Part shown: positions 12,852-23,909 of the stretch, one piece after another
Position numbering within the stretch: the first letter of the stretch is position 1
How the letters are laid out: each line of letters starts with the position of its first letter
IMG/VR virus record: IMGVR_UViG_3300023223_000072
Coordinates: 1 to 31,547 of that record
Source: a virus
Length of the DNA: 31,547 bases
Direction: 5' to 3' (one strand)
Program-made: the position numbers and the translations under genes
Notes under the pieces: generated by a model
Databases searched by the model: none
The model's input: only the letters and a program-made list of their open reading frames with translations
What the model was told of the DNA's origin: nothing

Positions 12852-13823
12852 CTAGTTAGTTAATCTTGCATTAATACCAGCGTTAATTACTCGCATTTCT
12901 ATTTCTGAAAGTTCGGCTCTAGCTTCATCAATCGCCAGTTGATCATCACCTTCAAATATTTTCTTATAGCTGAAAAATAAATCTCTACCATCTTTTAACT
13001 TTGCAGCTACCTTTGTTTTTTGACCTTTAGGGAAGTTTCTATAAATATACTGTGATACTTCGTCTTCTTCTCTGTACTGCTCGATATATCCCCACAATAC
13101 TAATGGCTCGCTACCTTCATCATAAAGAGAATTGAACTTCTCTGAGTACTCTTTACGGGTATCTTCAAGGCCTTCGTTGTTGTCAGTGTTTAAATGATGG
13201 ATGGCGTTGTTTAATCTTTCGATAGCAGGCCAATATTTAGCTGCACGTTTAACAACTGTCTTTCTGGCCATTTCGTTCCAGTGAGTTTTCCACGGGCCGT
13301 TTTTAGCTTTAGATGAATTCTGAATAGCAACAATATCAGCATGTGACATTTCATCGGTTAGGTAATCACCGTGACATGTTTTAACTGTACAGTAAGCACC
13401 AATAACATTACCTCTATCACCAAATGGCGTGTAGGAATGCGCAGGAGCTTTATCTAGCCCTTGGTTAGAGTAATTGTCGTTACTGTATACTAATTTACAT
13501 TGACCCCATAGAATCGAGCCTGTTGACATTGCTAGGTGCATTAGTCCCATGTAAGAGATGTCTAAACAAACCTTCCCATCTCTCGGCACTAAGTAAGCAT
13601 GTTTCTGTGCTGGGTTTAAGCTAATACCAATTGATGCAACATTAATAATTGCAGCTTGTAAGCTTGTTGGGTTTTTCTGGGCTGTAGTAAGCAAGAAGTT
13701 ATTACCATTAAAAGCTTGGATAGCGAATTGCTTTTCCTTCTCCCATGATATGCCCTTGTCAGTTATAGCAGGAAGAAATAACTCTTTCTGCTCCTCGATG
13801 TACGATACTAAATCATTACTCAT
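12852..13823 (-). CDS. recT: RecT-family single-strand annealing recombinase
   Basis: RecT-type proteins anneal complementary strands and promote strand invasion during phage replication. At 323 aa the product shows the family pattern: PTSLQAAIINVASIGISLNPAQKHAYLVPRDGKVCLDISYMG (short marks: SIGISLNPAQ, YLVPRDGKVCLDISYMG) near residues 50-105, then GPWKTHWNEMARKTVVKRAAKYWP near 177-200, the conserved basic region. The C-terminal third is charged and less conserved. Its start overlaps the preceding stop as ATGA. No RecE or lambda-type exonuclease lies beside it, which is unusual; the partner may be missing, elsewhere, or host-supplied. Confidence 0.9.
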   Translation of the reverse strand: MSNDLVSYIEEQKELFLPAITDKGISWEKEKQFAIQAFNGNNFLLTTAQKNPTSLQAAIINVASIGISLNPAQKHAYLVPRDGKVCLDISYMGLMHLAMSTGSILWGQCKLVYSNDNYSNQGLDKAPAHSYTPFGDRGNVIGAYCTVKTCHGDYLTDEMSHADIVAIQNSSKAKNGPWKTHWNEMARKTVVKRAAKYWPAIERLNNAIHHLNTDNNEGLEDTRKEYSEKFNSLYDEGSEPLVLWGYIEQYREEDEVSQYIYRNFPKGQKTKVAAKLKDGRDLFFSYKKIFEGDDQLAIDEARAELSEIEMRVINAGINARLTN

Positions 13824-17641: not shown

Positions 17642-18319
17642 ATGTCAACAGGTTGGATAAAGCTACACCGCCAACTTTTAGAATGGGAGTGGTACAGCGA
17701 CATTAATGTAACAAGATTATTCTTGCACTTAATGTTAAAGGCTAATCACAAAGATAAAAAGTATCGCGGCATAGTTATACAAAGAGGTCAATTATTGACT
17801 GGTAGAGAGTTACTATCATCTGAAACAGGCTTATCAGAGCAACAAATAAGAACGTGTTTAACTAAGCTAAAATCAACCAGCGATATAACCATCAAATCAA
17901 CCAGCAAAGGCACGCTCTTAACTGTTGATAACTATGGTATTTATCAGGGTTGTGATGATGTATCAACCAGCAAATCAACCAGCACCTTAACCAACGAGCA
18001 ACCAACGGATAACCAACGAGTAACCACTAACAAGAATGTTAAGAATGATAATAATGTAAATAATAAAGACTTGTCTGTTATCACAGACGGTTTTGATCAT
18101 TGGTGGAATCTTTATCCAGTTAGCAGAAGAATAAATAAAAAAGGTTGTTTAACTAAATTCAAAAGCAAGTGTAAGGGAATGAATGATCAAGAAGTAGTTG
18201 ACCTTATAAACTTAATCTCTAAAGATGTTATCAAGCGAGCAAATGAGGTTGAAGATTTAAAGTACATGCCAACTACCGAACCTTACCTAAACAAAGAAAG
18301 ATGGAATGATGAATCATGA
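17642..18319 (+). CDS. Replication initiator, lambda O-like plan
   Basis: The 225-aa product has a winged-helix-like N-terminal domain (about 1-100: WIKLHRQLLEWEWYSD, LTGRELLSSETGLSEQQIRTCL, VDNYGIYQG), a polar Ser/Thr/Asn linker (about 105-145) and a C-terminal domain beginning FDHWWNLYPVSRRINKKGC, near the size and order of phage replication proteins that recruit DnaB. It is directly followed by a DnaB-type helicase (ATGA overlap). Its gene holds two iteron arrays, the normal arrangement for lambda O, which binds repeats inside its own gene. Loading of helicase is inferred from family and order. AAGGTGA lies five bases before ATG 17642. Confidence 0.8.
   Translation: MSTGWIKLHRQLLEWEWYSDINVTRLFLHLMLKANHKDKKYRGIVIQRGQLLTGRELLSSETGLSEQQIRTCLTKLKSTSDITIKSTSKGTLLTVDNYGIYQGCDDVSTSKSTSTLTNEQPTDNQRVTTNKNVKNDNNVNNKDLSVITDGFDHWWNLYPVSRRINKKGCLTKFKSKCKGMNDQEVVDLINLISKDVIKRANEVEDLKYMPTTEPYLNKERWNDES
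17870..17983 (+). repeat. Iteron array A: four copies of (AA)ATCAACCAGC
   Basis: Copies of AAATCAACCAGC at 17870-17881, 17894-17905 and 17972-17983, and GTATCAACCAGC at 17960-17971. Spacings are 24, 66 and 12 bases, all multiples of 6. Confidence 0.85.
17989..18032 (+). repeat. Iteron array B: 11-bp tandem repeats AACCAACG(A/G)(G/A)N
   Basis: AACCAACGAGC (17989-17999), AACCAACGGAT (18000-18010), AACCAACGAGT (18011-18021) and a degenerate AACCACTAACA (18022-18032). The 11-base period is close to one helical turn. Confidence 0.85.
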
Positions 18320-19749
18320 TAGATTTTAACGAAAAGAGTTTAGATGTTGAACAAAGCTTATTAGGATCCCTTTTACAGCTTGGCGATACAAACACAGAAT
18401 TATTCTCAAAAACTATAAGAATGGTGAAAGAGAAAAGTTTTTACAGTGTTAGCCATAAAGCTATTTTTAGAGCTATTAAGTTAGCAGCTAATAGAAACAA
18501 CCATGTCGACATGACATTAGTTAACGAATGCTTAAAGGCTTCTGGTGACGAAGAGAGATCGGGCGGTATTATTTACCTTGCTGAGATGATGAGATCAACG
18601 CCTAGTGCTGCAAACATTATTGGCTATGCAAAAATAGTTAGAGAGTATTCAGTAGAGCGATATGCCAACTCAAAACTAAATGAGATGCTAGGAATGTTTA
18701 ACGACTCGTCAACAGGTGACGTATATCAACGCCTAGGTATGCTAGAAACGACGATAGGCGATATATTGAACCTTGGGCTTAAAGATGACAAAGCAGGCTT
18801 AAAACATATCTCTGAGAGCCTAGGAACATGGCTAGATAATATTGAGGACGTTAGAAAAGACGGAGTTGATAAGAACAAATTTACCACTGGCATTGAATCA
18901 CTTGATGATATTTTAGGAGTCAAAGGTTTAAGGCGCGGCGGTTTATACGGAGTTGGCGCACGTCCTAAGATGGGTAAAAGTGCCTTTATGATGTTAATAG
19001 CTAATCATTTTGCACTTGACCTTAATGAGTTTGTTGCGGTGTTTTCAATGGAAATGCCAGAGGAAGAAATTGCAGAGCGCTCAATAACAAACAGAACACT
19101 TTTAAATCCTTCTGAGTTTTATAGAAAGGATCCAAGCACCGAATCAACAGCTAGACTAGATACAACATTTTCAGAGTTAGTTAAATCAGGAATGCATGTT
19201 GATGACGGTACAGGATTAACCCTAGGCCATATCCAAAGAGAGGCTAGAAAGCTACGTAAAGAAAAAGGATCAATAGGTCTGATTTGTGTTGATTACCTAA
19301 CGTTGATGGAAGCTGAGAAAGCAGATAGAAATGATTTAGCTTATGGCATGATCACAAAAGCACTTAAGAACCTAGCCAAAGAATTAAACTGTGTTGTTTT
19401 AATGCTAACTCAACTTAACAGAGGTTTAGAAAGTAGAGCGGATAAACGCCCTATGCCATCAGATAGCCGTGATACTGGTCAAATAGAACAAGATGTCGAT
19501 GGATGGTTTGGTCTGTATATGGAATCTGTTTACGATGAAGAAGTAAGCTTTCCTGGATTAACAGAAGTTTTAGTAAGACTTAATCGTCATGGTGGTAAAG
19601 GTACTGCGTTTGTAGAAATGCGCCAAGGCTTTCATGTTCCTGTATCAAATAATGATGGAGCTACCGAGCTTAATATAAGAAAGCAAAAGAAAAAAGAAGA
19701 AGAACCACAAACTGAATTTACACCAAAAACTAAAAAGTACGCGAGATAA
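18316..19749 (+). CDS. dnaB: Replicative DNA helicase, DnaB family
   Basis: This hexameric 5'-3' helicase unwinds the fork. The 477-aa product has the DnaB N-domain (VEQSLLGSLLQ at 11-21, GGIIYLAEM near 83), a linker, and a RecA-like motor: Walker A GARPKMGKS (214-222), FSMEMPEEEIAERS (H1a, 243-256), Walker B LICVDYLTL (322-330), QLNRGLESRADKRP (366-379, H3) and an arginine region near the end (VRLNRHGGKGT). Length matches the family. It is coupled to the initiator upstream. The polar tail KKKEEEPQTEFTPKTKK is likely flexible. Confidence 0.95.
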   Translation: MIDFNEKSLDVEQSLLGSLLQLGDTNTELFSKTIRMVKEKSFYSVSHKAIFRAIKLAANRNNHVDMTLVNECLKASGDEERSGGIIYLAEMMRSTPSAANIIGYAKIVREYSVERYANSKLNEMLGMFNDSSTGDVYQRLGMLETTIGDILNLGLKDDKAGLKHISESLGTWLDNIEDVRKDGVDKNKFTTGIESLDDILGVKGLRRGGLYGVGARPKMGKSAFMMLIANHFALDLNEFVAVFSMEMPEEEIAERSITNRTLLNPSEFYRKDPSTESTARLDTTFSELVKSGMHVDDGTGLTLGHIQREARKLRKEKGSIGLICVDYLTLMEAEKADRNDLAYGMITKALKNLAKELNCVVLMLTQLNRGLESRADKRPMPSDSRDTGQIEQDVDGWFGLYMESVYDEEVSFPGLTEVLVRLNRHGGKGTAFVEMRQGFHVPVSNNDGATELNIRKQKKKEEEPQTEFTPKTKKYAR

Positions 19750-20000: not shown

Positions 20001-20226
20001 TATAGAGGAGGAGAAATTTCATATAGAGGGTAGCTGTAACTTGGTTGTTACTAAGTGGCAAGGAATAGCGCCTGATGTGACGCTTGATTATATTGAGCAC
20101 TCACCTGATTCTTGGTATAGCAACACAGAAACAAGCTGTGATATCGACAAAGAGAAAGCTATAGGAATTATTCAATTCTTAATGAAAAGCTTAAATATAA
20201 CTGATGATGATATTAAGGGTAAATGA
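19996..20226 (+). CDS. 76-aa hypothetical protein
   Basis: The product has a beta-like N-half (FHIEGSCNLVVTKW, VTLDYIEHSPDSW) and an acidic helix at the end (KEKAIGIIQFLMKSLNITDDDI). It shares its translation-start unit with the preceding gene, and its stop overlaps the methyltransferase start (ATGA). It shows no clear protein similarity to that neighbour, so only the start unit was duplicated. Confidence 0.6.
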   Translation: MNIEEEKFHIEGSCNLVVTKWQGIAPDVTLDYIEHSPDSWYSNTETSCDIDKEKAIGIIQFLMKSLNITDDDIKGK

Positions 20227-20924
20227 TGACATACCACTATGATCCAGATGAATATGAACATTTAGAATTAGAACTACAATCGAAAGAGGTTAAGCCTGCA
20301 GTCGAGGCTAGTAATTACACGCCTAAGATTGAGTTATATAACGTTGATTGCATGGAGTACATGAAAGACTGTAAAGATAATGAGTTTGATTTAGCTATTG
20401 TTGATCCTCCTTACCGTGACGAAAACCAACCGACTAAGGACATGCGAGCGAATGGCTCAATGAAGAGTTTAGAAGGCAGGCCGTCAAAAGAATACTTTAC
20501 TGAACTATTGAGGATTAGTAAAAATCAAATAATATGGGGTGCTAATAACTTTCAACTACCGCAATTCAAAGGTTTTGTAGTGTGGGAAAAAGAAACGATA
20601 GGCGAAACTTTCACTATGTCAATGTGTGAAATAGCTTCACTTTCAGAAGGATTGGCGACAACCTCTAAATTATGGAAGGGTAGACCGCAAGATAAATATA
20701 GAATCCATCCGACTCAAAAACCAGTGAGGTTGTATGATTTTTTATTAAAGCATTACGCTAAACAAGGTCAAAAAATACTAGATACTCACTTAGGTAGCGG
20801 ATCTAGTGCTATAGCCGCGCATTATTACGGCGTTGATTTTGTAGGCTGTGAGTTAGATAGTGATTATTTTAAAGCAGCATCAGAACGATTTGATAATCAA
20901 ACTAAGCAAGGAGATATGTTTTAA
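20223..20924 (+). CDS. DNA methyltransferase (N6-adenine or N4-cytosine type)
   Basis: The 233-aa product has the catalytic motif IV DPPY (61-64, in LAIVDPPYRDE), followed by HPTQKPVRLYDFLLKHY (162-178) and the AdoMet-binding motif I DTHLGSGSSAIAAH (187-200), with CELDSDYF (209-216). Motif IV before motif I is the beta-class order. It can modify phage or host DNA, for example to escape restriction or mark replicated DNA; the target cannot be read from sequence. Motif I has THL in place of the usual PF. Start ATG 20223, with a second ATG at 20226. Confidence 0.88.
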   Translation: MMTYHYDPDEYEHLELELQSKEVKPAVEASNYTPKIELYNVDCMEYMKDCKDNEFDLAIVDPPYRDENQPTKDMRANGSMKSLEGRPSKEYFTELLRISKNQIIWGANNFQLPQFKGFVVWEKETIGETFTMSMCEIASLSEGLATTSKLWKGRPQDKYRIHPTQKPVRLYDFLLKHYAKQGQKILDTHLGSGSSAIAAHYYGVDFVGCELDSDYFKAASERFDNQTKQGDMF

Positions 20925-21756: not shown

Positions 21757-22019
21757 TGACTCCCACGGAGAGGGCGCAGTATGATGCTGGCATAAAATGC
21801 GACCTAGCAAATGAAAGGTTTGGCCTTATTGAGGGCATGAGGATTTTGCTTGATAGCTTTAACTGTAATGATGTTGCAGACGAATACATCATAAAACTAG
21901 CTAGAGATCGTGAACTAGATAAGCTAAAAGATTTCATGCTTCACGTAGGAACTAAAGAAAGTGATATGCCTAGACATACCAGAATAAGAAACCCTTCAAC
22001 TGTAAATGGATTATATTAA
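21756..22019 (+). CDS. 87-aa hypothetical protein
   Basis: A helical, charged product (RAQYDAGIKCDLANERFG, DVADEYIIKLARDRELDKLKDF). Its start is coupled to the previous stop. No family recognised. Confidence 0.6.
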   Translation: MTPTERAQYDAGIKCDLANERFGLIEGMRILLDSFNCNDVADEYIIKLARDRELDKLKDFMLHVGTKESDMPRHTRIRNPSTVNGLY

Positions 22020-22518
22020 TATGAACGATTTAGTAAAGAATAAAAGCGGCGAGTTAATAACAACATCAAAGATTGTTTCTGATGTATTTGGCAAAGCTCA
22101 CCGCGACACTGTTAGAGCAATTAATAATTTAGATTGTAGTGAAGAGTTTAGAACTGCCAATTTTGCGCAGTCCTCTTACACCTCACCACAGAACAAAGTT
22201 TTGAAATGCTTTAATATCACTAGAGATGGATTTTCTTTTCTTTGTATGGGCTTTACTGGAAAGAAAGCTGCTAAGTGGAAAGAGAAGTACATAAAAGCAT
22301 TTAACGAAATGGAAAAGGGTCTGCTTAATGTGGATGCTGAAATGACACGCTTATCAAACCAAGGTAGAGAACTTAAACAGCTTGGTAGTGAATGGAGCGC
22401 ATTCGGGCATCAAATCAATAAGCAGAAGAAAGCCAACGACAAAGCATCAGCAGAACTTATAGATAAGGTTCAATTAACTTTGGGGTTTAACGACAATGGA
22501 AAAGCGCAGAATGGATGA
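22006..22518 (+). CDS. Rha-family phage regulatory protein
   Basis: Rha proteins are phage regulators that interfere with growth in some hosts; the DNA-binding N-domain is typical. The 170-aa product shows the family pattern: LITTSKIVSDVFGKAHRDTVRAINNL (short marks: TTSKIVSDVFGKAH, VRAINNL), CSEEFRTANFAQSSYTS, then CFNITRDGFSFLCMGFTGKKAAKWKEKYIKAFNEMEK (short marks: ITRDGFSFLCMGFTGKKA, KEKYIKAFNEME). The C-terminal half is helical. Two starts are possible, ATG 22006 or ATG 22021; neither has a strong ribosome site. Confidence 0.85.
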   Translation: MDYINMNDLVKNKSGELITTSKIVSDVFGKAHRDTVRAINNLDCSEEFRTANFAQSSYTSPQNKVLKCFNITRDGFSFLCMGFTGKKAAKWKEKYIKAFNEMEKGLLNVDAEMTRLSNQGRELKQLGSEWSAFGHQINKQKKANDKASAELIDKVQLTLGFNDNGKAQNG

Positions 22519-23167: not shown

Positions 23168-23304
23168 AATACAATATTGTTTATAGGTTTGTTGATCATG
23201 ATGCAGATAAAAAGATTGATTATTTCAATACATGGAAGGACGCTTGCAGATTTATGAAAGGCCTTTTAGATGATGGTTACATAATATTAGAGGTTAACGG
23301 GTAA
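23164..23304 (+). CDS. 46-aa hypothetical protein, GTG start
   Basis: GTG 23164 overlaps the preceding stop (GTGA); TAA 23302-23304 overlaps the next ATG. The product starts MKYNIVYRFVDHDAD and continues KIDYFNTWKDACRFMKGLLDDG, an alpha/beta mini-protein similar in outline to other short phage early proteins. The coupled junctions and protein-like composition support it. Confidence 0.6.
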   Translation: MKYNIVYRFVDHDADKKIDYFNTWKDACRFMKGLLDDGYIILEVNG

Positions 23305-23909
23305 TGATTAGGTCAGTATATTACGATCAAACAGATATTTTAAAATCAATAATGGAGTTGTGCGGAATAGAAAGGTTTTGCGCTGATGTGACTTTTGGTA
23401 ATGGTAAGTTTTACAGTGGTATAAAAGAACCCGGGTTAAAGTTTGATATATCACCACAAGTCCCCGGGGTTGTTGAATGCTCAAGTTCTAACCTGCTACT
23501 GGATACTGGCCAGATAAATAGTTTAGTGTTTGATCCGCCATTCTTAACTTATGTCCGGGCTGCCCGGGAAGGTAACGGCAATATGATAATGGCTAAAAGG
23601 TTTGGTGGTTACTGGCGTTATGAAGAATTAGAAACTCATTACCGGGATAGTTTATTAGAGGCTCACCGGGTACTTGGTAAAAAAGGAATCATGGTTTTTA
23701 AGTGCCAAGATATTATCCATAACCATAAAATGCACTGTACACATATGAATGTTATGGAGTGGTCAAAAGGCTTGTTTAGGTTAAAAGATTTATTTATTCT
23801 GCCGGCAAAGTCACGAATGCCAATACCACAGCAAGAAGGCACTAAAAAGAAAGTACAAAAACACGCTAGAATTTTTCACAGTTATTTTATGGTACTAGAG
23901 AAGGTATAA
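23304..23909 (+). CDS. DPPF-motif methyltransferase-like protein
   Basis: The 201-aa product looks like a class I AdoMet methyltransferase of the phage type: CADVTFGNGKFYSG (about 22-35) resembles motif I, LVFDPPFLTYVRA (about 74-86) motif IV with DPPF, then HYRDSLLEAHRVLGKKGIMVFKCQD (about 112-136; marks: LLEAHRVL, KGIMVFK). The order I before IV differs from the methyltransferase at 20223. Its substrate may be DNA or a small molecule; DPPF favours DNA. Its start overlaps the preceding stop as TAATG. Confidence 0.7.
   Translation: MIRSVYYDQTDILKSIMELCGIERFCADVTFGNGKFYSGIKEPGLKFDISPQVPGVVECSSSNLLLDTGQINSLVFDPPFLTYVRAAREGNGNMIMAKRFGGYWRYEELETHYRDSLLEAHRVLGKKGIMVFKCQDIIHNHKMHCTHMNVMEWSKGLFRLKDLFILPAKSRMPIPQQEGTKKKVQKHARIFHSYFMVLEKV

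Follow-up and report, generated by a model that had tools for sequence, protein, structure and literature searches.

The locus studied here raises the question of what reads a cluster of short repeats lying within the gene of a predicted phage replication initiator, and to what end. The window (the whole stretch of DNA analysed, 31,547 nucleotides, which is an entire virus record) had been described in an initial annotation as holding two distinct iteron arrays with different units, suggestive of two binding proteins or of two domains of one protein. We find that the repeats are one family and not two arrays, and we consider it very probable that they belong to a lambda/P22-like in-gene origin built of helically phased iterons, which the initiator would bind and from which replication would start. 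The features on which this reading is built are collected in Table 1.

Table 1. Features of the initiator locus, with positions numbered from the first letter of the window
Feature	Position	Strand	Description
Replication initiator gene	17642..18319	+	ORF; 225 aa: N-terminal wHTH domain, disordered linker, C-terminal helical domain
R55 codon	17804..17806	+	Start of helix 55–62; state predicts core base 4
Q67 codon	17840..17842	+	Start of recognition helix 66–78; state predicts core bases 1–2
Proximal iteron trio	17875..17903	+	AACCA at 17875, 17887, 17899; 12-bp steps, in frame; codes residues 78–88
Distal iteron array	17965..18026	+	Six AACCA (17965, 17977, 17989, 18000, 18011, 18022); all linker reading frames
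A+T-rich stretch	18027..18076	+	Candidate unwinding element; 78% A+T
AAGAATG, two copies	18032..18047	+	9-bp spacing; first copy 10 bp after start of last core
DnaB-like replicative helicase	18316..19749	+	Presumed partner; Pfam DnaB_C E 1.2e-56, DnaB E 2.3e-23; phrog_19 E 4e-101

The initiator gene and its repeats

The initiator matches the DnaD-like helicase loader family phrog_2514 (E 6.6e-34, residues 2–142 matched) as well as initiation-protein and O-like PHROG families, and tblastn aligned it with the O-like proteins of phages HK022, HK620 and Sf6 (E 1e-8 to 1e-10). No Pfam model matched it, DnaD included, a sequence search of the PDB with the initiator gave no match, and a PDB fold search returned only generic wHTH proteins (CodY, CzrA and CggR), at E values of at least 0.01. 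The start of the helicase gene overlaps the initiator stop. Elsewhere in the window, two DNA methyltransferase-like genes lie in the early region (20223–20924 and 23304–23909), a RecT-like annealing protein is encoded at 12852–13823 (PHROG search) and a Rha-family regulator at 22006–22518 (Pfam); most of the large minus-strand ORFs otherwise tested had no PHROG match.

The AlphaFold2 model of the initiator (from a 61-sequence alignment; mean pLDDT 79, pTM 0.49) has a confidently modelled wHTH domain extending to about residue 102 (pLDDT about 95), with helices at residues 55–62 and 66–78 and wing strands at 82–87 and 90–95. Residues 113–139 have pLDDT below 50, the polar linker being modelled as disordered, and the C-terminal domain is modelled as helical.

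Nine copies of the core AACCA occur within about 150 bp of the initiator gene, at successive steps of 12, 12, 66, 12, 12, 11, 11 and 11 bp, and, runs of A or T aside, no other 5-mer in the window clusters as strongly as AACCA (nine within 160 bp). When the same protein was recoded synonymously according to phage codon usage, AACCA appeared 2.2 times on average as against nine observed (P = 5e-5), and the number of cores having a neighbour 11 or 12 bp downstream, seven in the gene versus 0.19 expected, was seen in 0 of 20,000 recodings. These recoding nulls rule out simple codon bias as the cause of the repeats.

The four copies of ATCAACCAGC reported earlier are indeed present (at 17872, 17896, 17962 and 17974, with spacings of 24, 66 and 12 bp, and no others in the whole window), and the 11-bp tandem units are located at 17988–18026. 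That the two sets constitute different arrays is contradicted by the core, which is shared by all units and recurs at 17887, 17989 and 18022, outside or between the claimed units yet in phase with them. The case for two arrays, each with its own protein or its own domain of one protein, draws on the fact that units of the first kind are in frame at 12-bp steps and those of the second step by 11 bp, and on the 66 bp between the proximal and distal groups; against it, AACCA is common to all nine copies, and in one relative (L004) AACCAGC, the unit of the first kind, is itself found at 11-bp spacing.

Both arrays had also been placed in the polar linker, which is correct for the distal six copies, these alone sitting between the wHTH and C-terminal domains, and incorrect for the first three, which lie in wHTH-coding sequence and, in the model, encode the C-terminal end of the recognition helix together with the first strand of the wing. 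An 11-bp step is not divisible by three, so the distal array passes through all frames and would therefore dictate the TN-QPT-NQ residues of the linker. A disordered linker may well tolerate residues dictated in this way, and the in-frame 12-bp trio would impose its own codons on the wHTH domain.

Constraint on the DNA of relatives

Since megablast of 10 kb against phages gave no match, relatives were gathered via protein and profile searches, for which the window and its relatives served as queries; they are mostly environmental viral contigs, and their initiators form one broad wHTH family. With periods of 5 to 24 tested, the best repeat period was 11 in 56 of 78 non-redundant homologues and, in a larger set, 11 bp in 114 of 166 non-redundant relatives, about a quarter of relatives having a best period other than 11; in control segments, taken from the ORF downstream of the initiator, it was 11 in 2 of 61. 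Period-11 similarity exceeded that of synonymous recodings (p<0.05) in 63 of 78 genes versus 0 of 61 control segments. The intervals between cores are mostly 11 (344) or 12 bp (71), with about six copies per linker, and in 124 of 136 genes the cores of a single gene occupy each of the three frames. Core sequence varies among lineages (AACCA, AACAA, GACCA, GGCAA, GACAA, GTCCA and others, all in the one register N1 N2 C N4 A), while period and position are kept. A distant relative, L012, has another repeated word, CGAAAGCAACG, in wHTH-coding and linker sequence alike, and both L012 and the likewise distant L013 retain a downstream element, AACAAGAATGT, whole or partial.

It had been argued from the window that DNA function shapes the protein, and that iterons should be conserved among relatives at the DNA level beyond what the protein requires. 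Both expectations are borne out: among relatives the DNA repeats persist while the amino acids change, and, at codons whose amino acid is shared with a relative, third positions differ in 1 of 135 cases inside cores versus 336 of 769 outside (1 of 89 versus 234 of 513 when three contigs repeated in this list are each counted once). The converse, a conserved linker over freely varying repeats, is not what we observe, since synonymous positions within cores are near-invariant. One element of the earlier argument has to be given up, namely that STS units are a fixed feature of the linker; in a relative whose linker has no STS (L003) the 11-bp array is unbroken.

The same data bear on a different explanation, in which the linker is a low-complexity segment rich in S, T, N and Q and the DNA repeats are its by-product. 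It is true that the polar linker is disordered in the model and that part of the signal survives in the amino acids alone (period 11 is best in 19.5% of recodings); however, the repeat unit is not a multiple of three, cores are found in all frames, the recoding nulls are exceeded and the cores hardly change at synonymous positions. Frame, recoding and synonymous-position tests refute this explanation, to which we attach practically no probability.

Covariation of the core with residues 55 and 67

Among 136 genes, residue 67 shares 0.99 bit with core bases N1N2 (next column 0.33) and residue 55 shares 0.76 bit with N4 (next column 0.30). At residue 67, Q goes with AA at bases 1–2, R with GA and K with GG; at residue 55, R goes with C at base 4 and any other residue with A. 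Genes with R55 and Q67 have AACCA in 37 of 40 cases, the window (R55, Q67, AACCA) showing the same combination, and those with Q67 and a residue other than R at 55 nearly always have AACAA. R55 with R67 is accompanied by GACCA (16 of 18 genes), non-R55 with K67 by GGCAA (11 of 12) and non-R55 with R67 by GACAA (3 of 4), and the one gene with R55 and K67 has the core GGCCA. Serine at residue 67, found in few genes (e.g. L017, L018 and L115), marks a candidate additional specificity class, with cores such as CGCAA or GACAA.

Together, the two residues predict the core among six choices in 113 of 120 scorable genes (46 of 50 in the first set and 67 of 70 added later), a figure to be read with the residue-67 rule having first been seen in the first gene set, and with the test of residue 55 not being independent, since its rule was derived from the combined set on which it is tested. 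A further 46 genes are unscorable, either because residue 67 is other than Q, R or K or because the phased copies number fewer than two. Contrasts on supported branches of the tree are not numerous enough to reach significance, none of them running in the opposite direction, and the 78-column tree is weak, so that matched nearest pairs and control columns were used instead. Nearest pairs differing at residue 67 differ in N1N2 in 34 of 42 cases, and pairs sharing residue 67 agree in 54 of 59; where the members of a pair differ in R55, N4 changes in the direction expected in 42 of 46. Control pairs differing at nine other columns differ in N1N2 in about 35–54% of cases and in N4 in 23–54%.

In the model, residues 55 and 67 are the starts of the two HTH helices, the latter that of the recognition helix, and in wHTH proteins the starts of both HTH helices generally face the DNA. 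Because the core co-varies with two residues of its wHTH domain, the initiator itself is, judging from this covariation, most likely the one protein that binds all copies. The earlier suggestion of two binding proteins or two domains is at odds with these results: residues 55 and 67, on one surface, predict proximal and distal cores alike, and in relatives the proximal and distal cores change together. Considering these points along with the common core, we regard two separately bound arrays as highly improbable.

The proximal trio follows the same rule. The site at codons 82–84 is identical to the gene's own linker core in 94 of 136 genes (permuted mean 27.6, maximum 43). Its neighbours at 12 bp on the upstream and downstream sides show this identity in 68 and 52 of 136, respectively (permuted 21 and 19); elsewhere in the gene, the own core shows no enrichment in codons 1–73 and downstream stays within the permutation range. 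The codon for Leu82 is CTA or TTA in AA-class genes (19 of 20) and TTG where the core starts with G (15 of 16), and that for residue 83 is ACC or GCC when N4 is C (59 of 59) and ACA or GCA when N4 is A (49 of 52). Since synonymous choices there track the core, the wing-coding sequence is a candidate site of its own domain; that is, the DNA encoding the wing of this DNA-binding domain looks like a binding site for the domain.

A putative origin and its relation to known systems

The A+T-rich stretch noted earlier behind the repeats is confirmed (65% A+T for the gene as a whole), and its order relative to the iterons, likened before to that of the lambda origin, stands as an in-gene origin arrangement. 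In relatives, mean A+T content is 74% over the 50 bp that follow the array, versus 65% for the gene. AAGAATG occurs 225 times in relatives versus 50 +/- 5.7 under synonymous recoding, an excess of about 4.5-fold; in most core classes the first copy is mostly placed 10 bp past the start of the last core, with more following at 9-bp steps. The stretch with its AAGAATG copies is a candidate for an unwinding element or for a single-strand site, and the reader of AAGAATG would be a factor that stays the same when the core changes.

We suggest that positions 17875–18076 constitute a phage replication origin that lies within the gene of its own initiator, the protein that would read it. Each AACCA core, a non-palindromic direct repeat, would be bound by the N-terminal wHTH domain, with bases 1–2 read by residue 67 and base 4 by residue 55, with which the helix before the recognition helix begins. 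With steps of 11–12 bp, bound copies would lie on nearly one face of the helix and could form a nucleoprotein filament, straining the adjoining A+T-rich stretch until its strands open, after which the C-terminal domain would deliver the phage's own DnaB-like helicase, encoded just downstream. Binding, filament formation, strand opening, helicase delivery and origin activity are all steps that we infer, and the locus is called an origin on the basis of its arrangement, of homology and of annotations that are themselves predictions.

Considering that the two-residue code points to a binder and not to a purpose, it is formally conceivable that the initiator sites act in autoregulation or copy control and do not mark a replication start, since sites within the gene could block transcription or titrate the initiator. 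We judge a purely regulatory role to be unlikely, given that an A+T-rich stretch with conserved AAGAATG adjoins the array in most core classes, that the helicase gene is directly next, that homologues are annotated (putatively) as origins, and that this arrangement functions as an origin in lambda and Stx phages (PMC7466680). Autoregulation might be a function of the sites alongside initiation or in its place.

An origin inside an initiator gene is an already known concept. In the open-access literature searched, we found no description of the phased 11-bp design, of the trio embedded in the wHTH-coding sequence or of the two-residue code. We think it probable that a broad family of phage initiators has a self-encoded, phased origin with a modular two-residue code that has been switched repeatedly, the in-gene sites, wing-coding ones included, being rewritten each time. 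If this is true, origin specificity would be predictable from protein sequence alone, and origins and specificity groups could be called from sequence in uncultured phages. One rule, comprising 11-bp phasing, the proximal trio, AAGAATG and the two-residue code, would then apply to phages of Gram-negative and Gram-positive hosts and would replace scattered notes of repeats in phage initiator genes. The locus also illustrates clearly how DNA function dictates the sequence of a protein via all reading frames, and presents a DNA-binding domain that seems to have one of its sites in the very DNA encoding it; moreover, the code is amenable to ordinary binding assays on natural homologues.

Lambda iterons are about 18–19 bp long and have dyad symmetry. 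In contrast, the window has a 5-base non-palindromic direct core at 11–12 bp steps, with a trio in wHTH-coding sequence, and so lacks the palindromic, O-dimer-binding iterons of about 19 bp by which a lambda ori is strictly defined. In lambda, iterons are bound by dimers of O, while plasmid iterons are bound by monomers and are generally in helical phase (PMC5043065). The ori of lambda and Stx phages lies in gene O, where, as in the window, repeats in the initiator gene that are bound by the initiator (putatively so here) precede an A+T-rich tract; additional iterons in Stx phages lengthen the O protein by further residues, and synonymous changes were used to test the iterons (PMC7466680). Of the marks of a lambda-O/P22-gp18 in-gene origin in the wider sense, the window has in-gene direct repeats that the initiator would bind, an A+T-rich tract and O/gp18 homology.

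The P22 gp18/gp12-type modules of Sf6, HK620 and phage L have initiator homologues in which 11-bp repeats are visible, as in the window; the gene after the initiator encodes a DnaB-like helicase in phage L and is a replication gene in Sf6 and HK620, and in the homologues of all three a rep_origin, itself putative, is annotated in the corresponding stretch. They differ from the window in their cores (TACCA and GTCCA), in having other residues at 55 and 67, and in having fewer phased copies. The DnaD-like loaders and replisome organizers of phages of Gram-positive hosts have a PHROG family in common with the window protein, and members from Staphylococcus, Listeria and Lactobacillus phages also have 11-bp linker arrays, but with other cores; the named phages with such arrays include Sf6, HK620 and phage L together with phages of Vibrio, Cellulophaga, Staphylococcus, Listeria and Lactobacillus. 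RepA_N initiators bind iterons via an N-terminal domain resembling that of DnaD, their sites being mostly semi-palindromic, and the iterons of PLE satellites lie in a non-coding region (PMC7145576). Unlike those of the window, the sites of RepA_N systems and PLE are not inside the initiator gene. The design seen in the window resembles that of plasmid iterons placed in a lambda/P22-like gene.
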